Source of the DNA: an uncultured Pelagibacteraceae bacterium
Lineage (GTDB): Bacteria > Pseudomonadota > Alphaproteobacteria > Pelagibacterales > Pelagibacteraceae
Length of the DNA stretch: 64,000 nucleotides
NCBI GenBank assembly: GCA_902533445.1
Contig: CACALX010000004.1
Location: forward strand, 1-64,000
Reading direction: 5' to 3'
Below are positions 14,522 to 18,364 of the stretch, one piece after another. The notes beneath the pieces are model-generated. The model did no database searches, was not told the DNA's origin, and was given only the letters and a program-made list of their open reading frames with translations. Made by a program: the position numbers and the translations under genes. How positions within the stretch are numbered: position 1 is the first letter of the stretch; each line of letters begins with the position of its first letter.

Positions 14522-16012
14522 ATGAAGTTATTTTTTATACTTGGTAATCAATTATTTCCAACAAAATACCTAGACCGCTTCAAAAAAGACCACCTATTTT
14601 TTATGGCTGAAGATAAGGGTTTATGTACTTATGAGAAGCATCATAAACAAAAAATTTTATTATTTTTATCTTCAATGCGTTCTTATGCCGATGGGTTAAG
14701 AAAAAATAAATTTAAATTAGATTATTTTAAAATCGAAGATAAAGAATTTAATGATGATTATTTAAAAAAATTAAAAAAAATAATTACTCAAAAAAAGGTA
14801 AAAGAAATTTCAAGTTTTGAAGTGGAGGATAAATTTTTTGAAAAAAAAATTTCTCAATTTTTAAAAAAAGAAAAAATTAATTGGAATGTAATTCAAACAC
14901 CAATGTTTCTTAATTCTAGAGAAGAATTTAAAAATTATTTATCAAAATCAAAAAAACCTTTTATGGCAACCTTCTATAAGGATGTTAGAAAAAAATCTGG
15001 AATATTAATGGGGTCAGATGGTAATCCAATTGGAGGTAAATGGAGCTTTGATGAAGACAATAGAAATAAATTACCAAAAAACATATCAATTCCTAAATTT
15101 CCAAAAATCAATGAAACTAGTCATACAAAAAAACTGAAGCCTATTATTGAGAAGGAATTTAAAAACCATCCAGGAAGTACAGAGAATTTCTGGTTTGCTA
15201 CTGAATATGAAGATGTAGTTCAACTTTTAAACTTTTTTATAAAAGAAAAATCTAATCTATTTGGTGATTATGAGGATGCTGTAGATCAAAAAGATAATAT
15301 TCTTTTTCATAGTGCTTTAAGTCCTTATATAAATTTAGGTATAATAACACCTGAATTTGTTGTTCAAAAAATTTTAGATTTACATAAAAAAAAAAAAATT
15401 AGAATGAATTCTTTAGAGGGTTATGTACGTCAGGTAATCGGTTGGAGAGAATTTATGCGTGGAATTTACCAGTCCTATTCACAAGAAATGGAAATTGGAA
15501 ATTTTTTTAATCAGAATAGAAAAATGAAAGGTTCTTGGTATGAGGGTACTACTGGTCTTCCACCTTTAGATTATGCGATTAAAAATGCAGTTAATTATGG
15601 CTGGTCACATCACATTGAAAGATTAATGATCTTATCCAATATCATGAACCTTTGTGAGATAAAGCCTACAATTGTTTATAAGTGGTTTATGGAGATGTTT
15701 GTAGACTCATCAGATTGGGTAATGGTTCCCAATGTTTATGGAATGGGATTGTTTAGTGATGGAGGCATTTTCGCGACTAAACCTTATATTTGTGGATCTG
15801 CGTATTTCATGAAAATGATGGACTTTAAGAAAGGTGATTGGTGCAACACCATGGATGGTCTTTATTGGAGATTCATAGATCGAAACAGAAAATTTTTTTT
15901 AAAAAATCCTCGTCTTTCAATGATGGTTCGTATCTTTGATAAAATGAAATCTGATAGAAAAAAATTAATTTTAGCAGAAGCCGACAAATTCATTAAACTA
16001 AATACAATTTGA
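14522..16012 (+). CDS. Cryptochrome/photolyase-related protein (PhrB/FeS-BCP type)
   Basis: A 496-residue protein of the prokaryotic (6-4) photolyase / FeS-BCP family. The N-terminal alpha/beta domain starts [10 protein letters not shown] and the FAD domain has [10 protein letters not shown] (305-314), [11 protein letters not shown] (359-369) and [14 protein letters not shown] (402-415). Well-studied members hold a 4Fe-4S cluster with a CxxC pair before the LYW motif; here that stretch reads [20 protein letters not shown], without CxxC. C378, C424 and C441 remain. It probably repairs UV lesions using light. The DUF2256 gene overlaps its stop codon (ATGA-type). Confidence 0.9.
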
Positions 16013-16140
16013 TGAAAAAAGAAAATTTACCAACAAAAATTTGTCCCGTTTGCAAAAGATTATTTACATGGAGAAAAAAATGGAAGTTGAATTGGGAGAG
16101 AGTAAAATATTGTTCCAAGAAGTGTTCTAAGCTAAGTTAA
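16012..16140 (+). CDS. DUF2256 mini-protein, 42 aa
   Basis: A very short gene overlapping the photolyase stop by one base. The 42-residue product has [19 protein letters not shown] followed by [15 protein letters not shown], the exact DUF2256 pattern with two Cys pairs (CPVC and CSKKC) that should bind a zinc ion. DUF2256 genes are commonly found next to photolyase/cryptochrome genes. Its role is unknown; a zinc-ribbon nucleic-acid or protein partner of the photolyase is the natural guess. Confidence 0.88.
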
Positions 16141-16162: not shown

Positions 16163-16384
16163 ATGAATAACCAAATCTTTGAATGGGCAGGAGTTATAAC
16201 TGCAATATTGTATTCTTTGTTTGTTGCTTTAAATATAGGTATAGAATTTTTTGGTTTTTGCTTATTACTTTTATCTGCAATTTTAATTGGTATTTGGGCT
16301 TATAGAGGTGGCCATAAAGGTATTTTATTTTTACAATTTTTTTATGCTACTGCTGGAATTATAGGTATGGTTCGTTGGTTTTAG
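16163..16384 (+). CDS. Small membrane protein, 73 aa
   Basis: Three hydrophobic helices fill almost the whole protein (about 6-22, 24-43 and 52-72), with a short loop AYRGGHKG. I do not recognise the family with certainty; the pattern slightly recalls half of a small-metabolite channel such as PnuC, but it is too short for that. It follows the DUF2256 gene by 22 bp and its last bases overlap the end of the convergent photolyase-like gene. Confidence 0.75.
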   Translation: MNNQIFEWAGVITAILYSLFVALNIGIEFFGFCLLLLSAILIGIWAYRGGHKGILFLQFFYATAGIIGMVRWF

Positions 16385-17520
16385 TTAAAAGTCGAAACAA
16401 TTTTGGGAATATAATTTTTAAAATTGAAAAATCCTTTATTACAGTATTGCCAAGCTAGTTGATCGAGACTTCTGTATAAAAAATCTACCTTTAAATTATT
16501 TGAATTTAAGTAGTCTAAATTTTCGCCGATTGTTGGATACAAACCACAACAATTTTCAATATTTGTCACTTCACTTATATCAATAATCTGACAATCAATA
16601 GATTGATTTTTTAATCTTTGTGCTTGGTCTTCTATTAACAGAGATTTAAATTTCATTAATTTTTCGCTAAGTTTTATAGATCTATCTTCATTCTTGTTAG
16701 AAACTAAGTAAATTTTCTTAAAGTTGTTTTCTTTAAAGTTAGTGACTTCAAAAGATAGATTATTATCAAAAATTAAAAGATTTTTTTCTTTAATATTCTC
16801 TGAATTATTAAAATCTTGTTTAATAATTTGATATGATTTTTCAGATACCTTTGGAGGAGCATTTTCATTTAACTGTATATTTTGAAATCTATTGTTAGTA
16901 AATTTTTTAATATTCCATTCACTCGCAAGGTAATGTTTTCCTTGAGTTTGAATACCCGCAACCCACCGCCACCCAAGAGTATTTGATGCAGCATCTCCGT
17001 CGAAAAGATGTTTCATAAAAAATTCTGCACCTAATTGCCATGGTAATTCTAGAGTAAAAATCCAAATACTAGCAAACCACATTCTTGTGTGATTATGTAA
17101 ATAATTGTTTTCTTTAAGCTCTGTCACCCACCTATTAAAGCAATCTATATTTGTTTTTCCTTCTATCGCAGAAAGATAATCTTGATTATTTTTAAATTCA
17201 TTTCTTATTTGTTTTAATTCAACAAGATAATCTGTCCAAACATTTGGTCTTAATTCTAACCAACCTTTCCAATAAGTTCTCCATAGAACTTCTTGAATAA
17301 ATTTTTCATTTTTTGAAAAAGAAAATTTACTTAGAGCTTTCTGAATGACTTCTTTTTCATTAATAACTCCATGAGTTATGTATGGTGATAAGCAGGATAT
17401 ATTAGATCTTTTTTCAGGACCAAAATCAAAATTTCTTAATTTTGAATACTCTGCAAGATGATTATCAACAAAATTATTTAATTGATCTAAGGCCTTAGCC
17501 CTTGAAGCTTCAAATATCAT
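16381..17520 (-). CDS. Photolyase-like protein with N-terminal FAD domain
   Basis: A 379-residue protein whose first ~210 residues are the FAD-binding half of photolyases: SCLSPYITHGVIN (42-54), EVLWRTYWKGW (77-87), HNHTRMWFASIW (142-153) and DGDAASNTLGWRWVAGIQT (174-192). The usual N-terminal antenna domain is absent. Instead residues ~245-375 look alpha/beta (NLLIFDNNLSFE, KKIYLVSN, SLLIEDQAQRLKNQ, CQIIDI) and end LYRSLDQLAWQYCNKGFF. So the domain order appears swapped relative to canonical photolyases. Flavin binding is likely; whether it repairs DNA or senses light is open. Confidence 0.82.
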   Translation of the reverse strand: MIFEASRAKALDQLNNFVDNHLAEYSKLRNFDFGPEKRSNISCLSPYITHGVINEKEVIQKALSKFSFSKNEKFIQEVLWRTYWKGWLELRPNVWTDYLVELKQIRNEFKNNQDYLSAIEGKTNIDCFNRWVTELKENNYLHNHTRMWFASIWIFTLELPWQLGAEFFMKHLFDGDAASNTLGWRWVAGIQTQGKHYLASEWNIKKFTNNRFQNIQLNENAPPKVSEKSYQIIKQDFNNSENIKEKNLLIFDNNLSFEVTNFKENNFKKIYLVSNKNEDRSIKLSEKLMKFKSLLIEDQAQRLKNQSIDCQIIDISEVTNIENCCGLYPTIGENLDYLNSNNLKVDFLYRSLDQLAWQYCNKGFFNFKNYIPKIVSTFN

Positions 17521-17525
17521 TTTAA

Positions 17526-17906
17526 TTATTTTGATTTTTTTTTCTTAAGGCCCAATTTGTCACTATGTCTTAATCTTAAGACAACTATGGCTCCTGCAAT
17601 TAATAAAATTGCGACTGCTTCATAAACAAGTGCGGTAGGATCCATTTCTTTTCCTTGCAAAATAATAAATCGTGCAAGAGCGGTTATTGCAATAAGAAGT
17701 GGAAGGGTAATACTAATAGATTGCTGGTTCCAAAAAACTCTAACCATTGCAAGAACTTCTAAATAAAGAAACATTAAAAGCAAATCTGCCAATGTAACAG
17801 ATTGATTTAAGAACATATTTTTCATTTCAATCCCAACAGCAATAACAGTACTGATTAAGATAATAACCATCAATGCTAACTGTAAGTTCTTTGCTATTTT
17901 ATCCAT
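17526..17906 (-). CDS. PsiE-family membrane protein
   Basis: A 126-residue protein with four predicted helices and the PsiE (phosphate-starvation-inducible E) signatures LLMFLYLEVLAMVRVFW (43-59) and ITALARFIILQG (73-84), ending in a Lys-rich tail (LGLKKKKSK). In enterobacteria psiE is induced by phosphate limitation, but its biochemical role is unknown. No pho-box-like repeat is obvious here. It shares one base (start/stop) with the upstream 152-aa membrane protein gene. Confidence 0.88.
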   Translation of the reverse strand: MDKIAKNLQLALMVIILISTVIAVGIEMKNMFLNQSVTLADLLLMFLYLEVLAMVRVFWNQQSISITLPLLIAITALARFIILQGKEMDPTALVYEAVAILLIAGAIVVLRLRHSDKLGLKKKKSK

Positions 17907-18364
17907 TATTTATCTTTACTAAAAGGTAACCATTTTTCAAATACTGATTTTGATGGACCATCATATGGAATTGAATATGAGTTTGGATTTGGACTTGTTA
18001 AAACCTCAATACCTTTTGAAAAAACAAATATAAATACTATTACAAAAACAATTACCATTATTTTAAATGGATCAAAATTTTTAGTTCGAAACACACTTGC
18101 AGACTTCTCTTCTGCTCTATGAAATTGTTTAAATGTCATGTAGACGGCAAATATTAAACCTATATGAGCTAAAAAAAGTCCAGCCCATCCAAAAGCAAAA
18201 GTTGTGTATGAGAATACGTATAAGCTAAATACTGTTGTCCATATAAAACTTAAAACTAAAAGAATTTGTAGTCTTACTGTTTTTGGAAGTGCACGTAGAT
18301 CATTTTTACTATCATCAAATAAAATATTTGCAGCATCTTTCATCCAGTTCTTTATTGATTCCAT
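17906..18364 (-). CDS. Hypothetical membrane protein, 152 aa
   Basis: I do not recognise this protein. Three hydrophobic helices are visible (about 32-53, 56-76 and 101-122), with a soluble N-terminus (MESIKNWMKDAANILFDDSKND) and a polar C-terminal tail that is probably periplasmic. Its stop overlaps the psiE start, so it is the first gene of a two-gene operon and may work with the PsiE-like protein. Confidence 0.75.
   Translation of the reverse strand: MESIKNWMKDAANILFDDSKNDLRALPKTVRLQILLVLSFIWTTVFSLYVFSYTTFAFGWAGLFLAHIGLIFAVYMTFKQFHRAEEKSASVFRTKNFDPFKIMVIVFVIVFIFVFSKGIEVLTSPNPNSYSIPYDGPSKSVFEKWLPFSKDK

Follow-up and report, generated by a model that had tools for sequence, protein, structure and literature searches.

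A photolyase of inverted domain order in Pelagibacteraceae, very probably of the NewPHL type, with an antenna-like domain at its C-terminus

The locus described here raises the question of what a photolyase does, and where its C-terminal part comes from, when the FAD domain stands first and an alpha/beta domain last. The window (the whole stretch of DNA that was analysed, 64,000 nucleotides of contig CACALX010000004.1 from an uncultured Pelagibacteraceae bacterium, assembly GCA_902533445.1) encodes such a protein at 16381-17520 on the reverse strand. The open reading frame starts with ATG, includes its stop codon and translates to 379 amino acids without an internal stop. Based on the reading frame, Pfam matches, homologues, alignment and tree, the protein is very probably a NewPHL-type photolyase acting on cyclobutane pyrimidine dimers (CPDs), with a relocated and shortened antenna-like C-terminal domain.

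The N-terminal FAD-binding domain (residues 1-212; 16885-17520, reverse strand) was delimited by Pfam, phmmer and alignment. In a phmmer comparison with PDB photolyases, residues 6-189 pair with 208-394 of 1tez (E 2.1e-16), and Pfam FAD_binding_7 (PF03441) matches residues 74-198 (E 1.5e-16), which confirms the N-terminal position given to the FAD-binding half in a preliminary description of this locus. The antenna model PF00875 had no Pfam match in the 379-residue protein, even at E 1. A linker that is poorly conserved in the alignment (residues 213-239; 16804-16884, reverse strand) leads to a C-terminal alpha/beta 'Z' domain (residues 240-379; 16384-16803, reverse strand), which appears antenna-like from the alignment, AlphaFold2, VIA-align and HHalign and ends in the conserved stretch KGFF-FK--IPK. 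A DUF5406 match to this domain (Pfam, E 0.03, below the cut-off) was taken as chance. Between residues 187 and 300 the translation is free of Cys, and so no Fe-S cysteines follow the FAD domain. The best phmmer matches span from about residue 6 to residue 209 of 379, and none of the PDB chains found is a full-length counterpart; the compact class therefore looks structurally unsolved.

The preliminary description also held that the alpha/beta domain comes first in known photolyases, but this is out of date, as NewPHL, phr6 and the split phr4-phr5 are in print. NewPHL is a class of inverted topology described in 2020 (Emmerich et al., NAR gkaa1147, via the citing papers PMC9426592 and PMC13274461), reported there to combine an FAD domain at the N-terminus with a C-terminal Z-domain and to repair CPDs in single-stranded DNA; in the citing literature the Z-domain is called a short photolyase domain of atypical kind. 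Characterised NewPHL proteins come from Dinoroseobacter and Methylobacterium, and PMC13274461 names the UniProt accessions A8LJA9 and M7YZC8 for the class. The FAD domain likewise comes first in the proteins described as short photolyase-like (SPL; Xu et al. 2021, as cited in PMC9649867). Among cyanobacteria, PMC9426592 describes split phr4/phr5 and inverted phr6 photolyases in Synechococcus and Cyanobium, and a Prochlorococcus phr7 with an N-terminal FAD domain and a C-terminal Z-domain, said to be without Fe-S cysteines.

The window protein resembles NewPHL in its N-terminal FAD domain, its short C-terminal alpha/beta domain and the lack of an N-terminal antenna domain, in a Trp dyad in place of a triad, and in its alphaproteobacterial distribution. 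Every sequence-level feature of NewPHL that was compared was found in it, the class being known here from descriptions in citing papers. By description it is also like phr7 (FAD first, Z-domain, no Fe-S cysteines). It shares with phr4, phr5 and phr6 the order of FAD domain first and antenna-like domain second, but those are encoded by split genes, or carry a longer antenna-like domain in a fusion, and fall outside the NewPHL clade. Class I/III CPD photolyases share its FAD domain and pocket residues, but have the antenna domain first, a Trp triad and a longer C-terminus of the FAD domain. Precedents for the inverted order now exist, and NewPHL is the published class that the protein fits. Set against NewPHL in print, the SAR11 members are 376-386 residues long, and the window protein shares 33-42% identity with the homologues of other alphaproteobacteria in a 39-sequence alignment. 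Among the papers listed in literature searches, none dealt with SAR11 members of NewPHL, and nothing relevant turned up on circular permutation or an antenna domain.

A survey of the family shows that this domain order is not a chance occurrence. Among 147 genomes of the family, 89 carry a same-order homologue (rows with E <= 1.2e-95; counted by hand, and including a few fragments or broken copies, e.g. in genome G105); the figure is 21 of 289 for the class (rows with E <= 7.4e-59) and 12 of 299 for a phylum-wide sample. These 12, which include the window's own genome, all belong to the same class. The best 80 relatives in GTDB genome contigs are 79-89% identical, and their titles are all Pelagibacteraceae, Pelagibacterales or Ca. 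Pelagibacter. Plasmid-borne homologues include those of Ruegeria sp. TM1040, Asticcacaulis, Niveispirillum, Peteryoungia and Novosphingobium; that of Ruegeria sp. TM1040 (Roseobacteraceae) can be aligned with the window protein from end to end (33% identity). In Asticcacaulis and Ruegeria (L161 3049-8178 and L160 3980-6582) an AarF/UbiB-kinase-like gene is found near the photolyase gene, which in Asticcacaulis also adjoins a DUF3429 gene and one for an NAD(P)-binding protein. No viral relatives were detected in IMG/VR scans, and INPHARED phage records gave matches to the FAD half only, over at most 52% of the query.

Residue conservation was determined in a full-length alignment of 39 homologues of our choosing, with the numbering of the A. 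nidulans photolyase mapped by phmmer alignment. Within the FAD domain, E77, W80, N143, H144, M147, W161, N180 and W184 are each identical in all 39 sequences, as is R146, and W186 is identical in 38. Identity is 39/39 at the positions corresponding to A. nidulans E283, W286, N349, M353, N386, W390 and W367, and 38/39 at that of W392; we take these to be residues of the substrate and flavin pocket and of the Trp chain. The third classical Trp (A. nidulans W314) is missing, with no Trp in columns 104-111 of any of the 39 sequences. A Trp dyad is described for the NewPHL of Dinoroseobacter (PMC8948257), and N180 corresponds to the flavin-contacting Asn that PMC12083526 reports as retained in NewPHL.

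The pocket Arg of A. nidulans, R350, is replaced by His in all 39 homologues, and lesion or strand preference may therefore differ. This replacement could be taken to mean that the inverted photolyase repairs another lesion, e.g. (6-4) photoproducts, and PMC9426592 raises the possibility that the inverted phr4/phr5 of Synechococcus is a (6-4) enzyme. However, the remaining pocket residues match those of CPD photolyases and the PF04244-type gene next door is a better candidate for a (6-4) enzyme, judging from Pfam and from the account of phr2 in PMC9426592; repair of a different lesion is thus hardly probable. The same pocket bears on the suggestion of the preliminary description that the protein has a distinct job such as light sensing. 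A cryptochrome-like blue-light sensor would use photoreduction of FAD to change a signalling C-terminal domain and would not repair DNA; the domain order does leave the C-terminal domain as a possible output module, and the gene does adjoin another of the photolyase family. Against this, the aligned lesion-pocket residues are kept except for the one Arg, domain searches of the 379-residue protein found no DNA-binding, kinase or other output domain, and relatives are reported to repair CPDs (PMC9426592, PMC13274461). Light sensing is not supported, as the pocket is kept but for one residue and, according to published reports, the relatives that have been characterised are CPD photolyases. A sensor is highly unlikely, and light-driven CPD repair appears far likelier from the sequence comparisons.

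The nature of the C-terminal domain was approached through structure prediction. The full-length AlphaFold2 model (38 SAR11 sequences) had a mean pLDDT of 53.7; a block at residues 241-350 reached pLDDT 61-93 and the rest was mostly poor, the FAD domain included (values below 50 for residues 131-237). When predicted alone (residues 236-379, 80 SAR11 sequences), the domain came out as alpha/beta with a mean pLDDT of 83.2 and a pTM of 0.77, so that the alpha/beta-like C-terminal domain of the preliminary description was borne out. In a VIA-align search of the PDB, the first four matches of the lone domain were photolyase-family chains (Z 8.1, 8.1, 7.9 and 7.8; 123-132 aligned residues, rmsd 4.0-4.9), followed by universal stress, Can2 and shikimate dehydrogenase folds (Z 7.5-7.0), which are tied with them by VIA-align's own rule. 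For the domain taken from the full-length model, the first nine matches were photolyase-family antenna domains (Z 8.3-7.3) and then universal stress proteins (at most 7.1). Foldseek gave no match at E <= 0.001; its top match was PhrB (5kcm; E 0.023, prob 0.98), with a cyclodipeptide synthase next. Photolyase antennas therefore rank first, but other folds are close, and with scores so nearly tied the structure alone says that the domain is Rossmann-like with an antenna domain as its best single match. The lead of less than one Z unit over universal stress proteins and others, and the non-photolyase in second place in Foldseek, favour another reading, in which the protein is an inverted photolyase whose C-terminal domain is an unrelated Rossmann or universal-stress-like domain added after loss of the antenna.

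Direct profile comparison leaves room for this unrelated domain as well. The C-terminal domain matched canonical antennas with HHalign probabilities of 3.7-7.1%, which was unconvincing before the split-gene bridge described below; with smaller profiles the score (19.8) lay under the shuffle maximum (20.9), and with extended profiles it was weak (22.3) but above the maximum of 200 shuffles (19.6). The bridge comes from FAD-only relatives in alphaproteobacteria, which have a second ORF directly downstream that starts within a few bases of the first, or overlaps it. The profile of these second ORFs matched canonical antennas with a probability of 95.8% and a score of 55.8, and the window-type C-terminal domain with a probability of 61% and a score of 32.3, collinear over 129 columns. 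Column shuffles of the latter comparison (200) had a mean of 11.2 and a maximum of 23.0; in the reverse direction the score was 26.1 (probability 20%), and with the smaller profiles the bridge scored 27.8, above a maximum of 22.7. Controls against the C-terminal domain (ArgG N-domain, SDR and PF04244-type N-domain, a single sequence each) scored 10-16. The PF04244-type N-domain showed no sequence kinship with the C-terminal domain (10.3), though structures of that type are its best VIA-align matches. PF00875 was detected weakly (E 0.013) in one of three split second ORFs and was absent from the other two, and the second-ORF profile also picks photolyase-sized ORFs in other genomes (E 1e-5 to 1e-3). 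These profile comparisons support true kinship of the C-terminal domain with the canonical antenna. The alternative of an unrelated, added domain is therefore unlikely, all the more as the FAD domains of the inverted and split kinds lie on one side of a branch of the tree presented below.

An antenna-like gene lies just downstream in all eight FAD-only relatives of the class-wide search (seven loci and genome G174), which is possibly a new observation. Ten split loci were examined; these eight, one in genome G745 reached via its second ORF, and one in Deinococcus sp. QL22 from a plasmid search. FAD-only 'short photolyases' with such a downstream gene were seen at L151-L158, L203, L204 and L215, in alphaproteobacteria and on one Deinococcus plasmid. 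The alphaproteobacterial arrangement is that reported for phr4/phr5 of Synechococcus (PMC9426592), and the published SPL class may be one half of a two-gene enzyme. On three Deinococcus plasmids the FAD and antenna-like parts are fused into one protein of inverted order, and two Persicobacter loci carry single long ORFs, which the second-ORF profile did not match. Several of the split or fused relatives retain cysteines after the FAD domain.

An unrooted tree was built from 58 FAD domains that we chose (30 NewPHL-type, nine split, two other fused and 17 canonical). A single branch (100/100) separates the 41 inverted or split rows from the 17 canonical ones, with the caveat that the program flagged long branches joining each other, and one Persicobacter row as long. 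The NewPHL-type sequences form one clade (100/99), apart from the split-gene phr4/phr5/phr6 type, and this clade holds both the window protein and the homologue of Ruegeria sp. TM1040. A single change of domain order would be the simplest reading of this topology, its direction not being fixed by an unrooted tree. The preliminary description had offered a circular permutation or a new C-terminal domain; the look of a relocated antenna holds up in VIA-align and in the profile bridge, but a clean circular permutation does not, as the change would rather be a move of the domain as a whole, the final part of the canonical FAD domain being absent.

The photolyase-related neighbour named in the preliminary description is a convergent gene of the PF04244 (DPRP) type at 14522-16012 on the forward strand (Pfam), present in 78 of 80 Pelagibacteraceae loci. 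Judged by the PhrB pattern, its product seems to be without the usual Fe-S cysteines near the C-terminus. A Prochlorococcus enzyme is likewise said to lack Fe-S (PMC9426592). At the stop codon of this gene begins that of a 42-residue DUF2256 protein (16012-16140, forward strand; PF10013, E 3.3e-19), which is a likely functional partner, as it lies beside the PF04244-type gene in 78/80 loci. On the other side, five bases upstream of the inverted photolyase gene, is a gene for a PsiE-family membrane protein (17526-17906, reverse strand; PF06146, E 3.6e-17; 80/80 loci), followed by one for a 152-residue membrane protein (17906-18364, reverse strand; ORF list and locus comparison); both are probably in the same transcript as the photolyase gene. 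The order argG, membrane protein, PsiE and inverted photolyase, facing the PF04244-type and DUF2256 genes, is near-constant in the 80 loci, but the PsiE/argG order was not conserved at four loci from other SAR11 genera. As the order is kept in the genus and not at these four loci, the neighbourhood gives no function.

The photolyase complement of the genus Pelagibacter was counted by hand in 27 genomes. The inverted gene is carried by 25, and a PF00875-type photolyase by 22. One of the 25 inverted genes is broken (G105:C7:27157-28294), in a genome that retains the canonical photolyase. Four genomes have the inverted and PF04244-type genes but no PF00875-type gene: the window's own (1.13 Mb, 87% complete), G035 and G074 (99% each) and G140 (96%). 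This combination, without a canonical photolyase, is possibly new, and incompleteness is an alternative explanation for the window's own genome. Genome G083 is without all three photolyase types and G137 has the canonical one only. Furthermore, the single-contig SAR11 genome G017 encodes a lone canonical antenna domain of 147 residues (L205 1366-1809, reverse strand) where related genomes have a 488-residue photolyase; this is probably the remnant of a lost second photolyase.

In the NewPHL-type CPD photolyase that we propose, the N-terminal domain would bind FAD, and the light-excited, reduced flavin would donate an electron to a CPD in DNA and so split the dimer. Re-reduction of the flavin would run through a short chain of two tryptophans, W184 and W161. 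The C-terminal domain of NewPHL is said, in the abstract of the 2020 description, to seal the FAD site. In the window protein this domain would be a shortened, relocated relative of the antenna, most likely packing on the FAD domain and shielding the cofactor, and it is more likely to be a shield than a carrier of an antenna dye. A preference for single strands may be expected. What counts against this picture is that the inverted gene is the sole CPD-type candidate in four of 27 genomes, which would be odd for a strictly single-strand enzyme.

A wider scenario can be put forward tentatively, and we hold it to be somewhat doubtful as a whole. A single relocation may have placed the antenna domain after the FAD domain, in one lineage whose present-day members come in three forms (overlapping split genes, a long fusion and the compact NewPHL fusion); the 'antenna-less' short photolyases would then be halves of a two-gene enzyme, and the compact inverted form would be the sole CPD photolyase of those Pelagibacter without a canonical one, serving the whole chromosome including duplex DNA. 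Inverted photolyases bear on the origin of the photolyase/cryptochrome family, and SAR11 belong to the most abundant bacteria of the sunlit ocean. Were the class restricted to single strands, the four genomes would be without a CPD photolyase for duplex DNA; genomes with the inverted enzyme and no canonical photolyase could show directly whether duplex DNA in the cell is repaired by this class.
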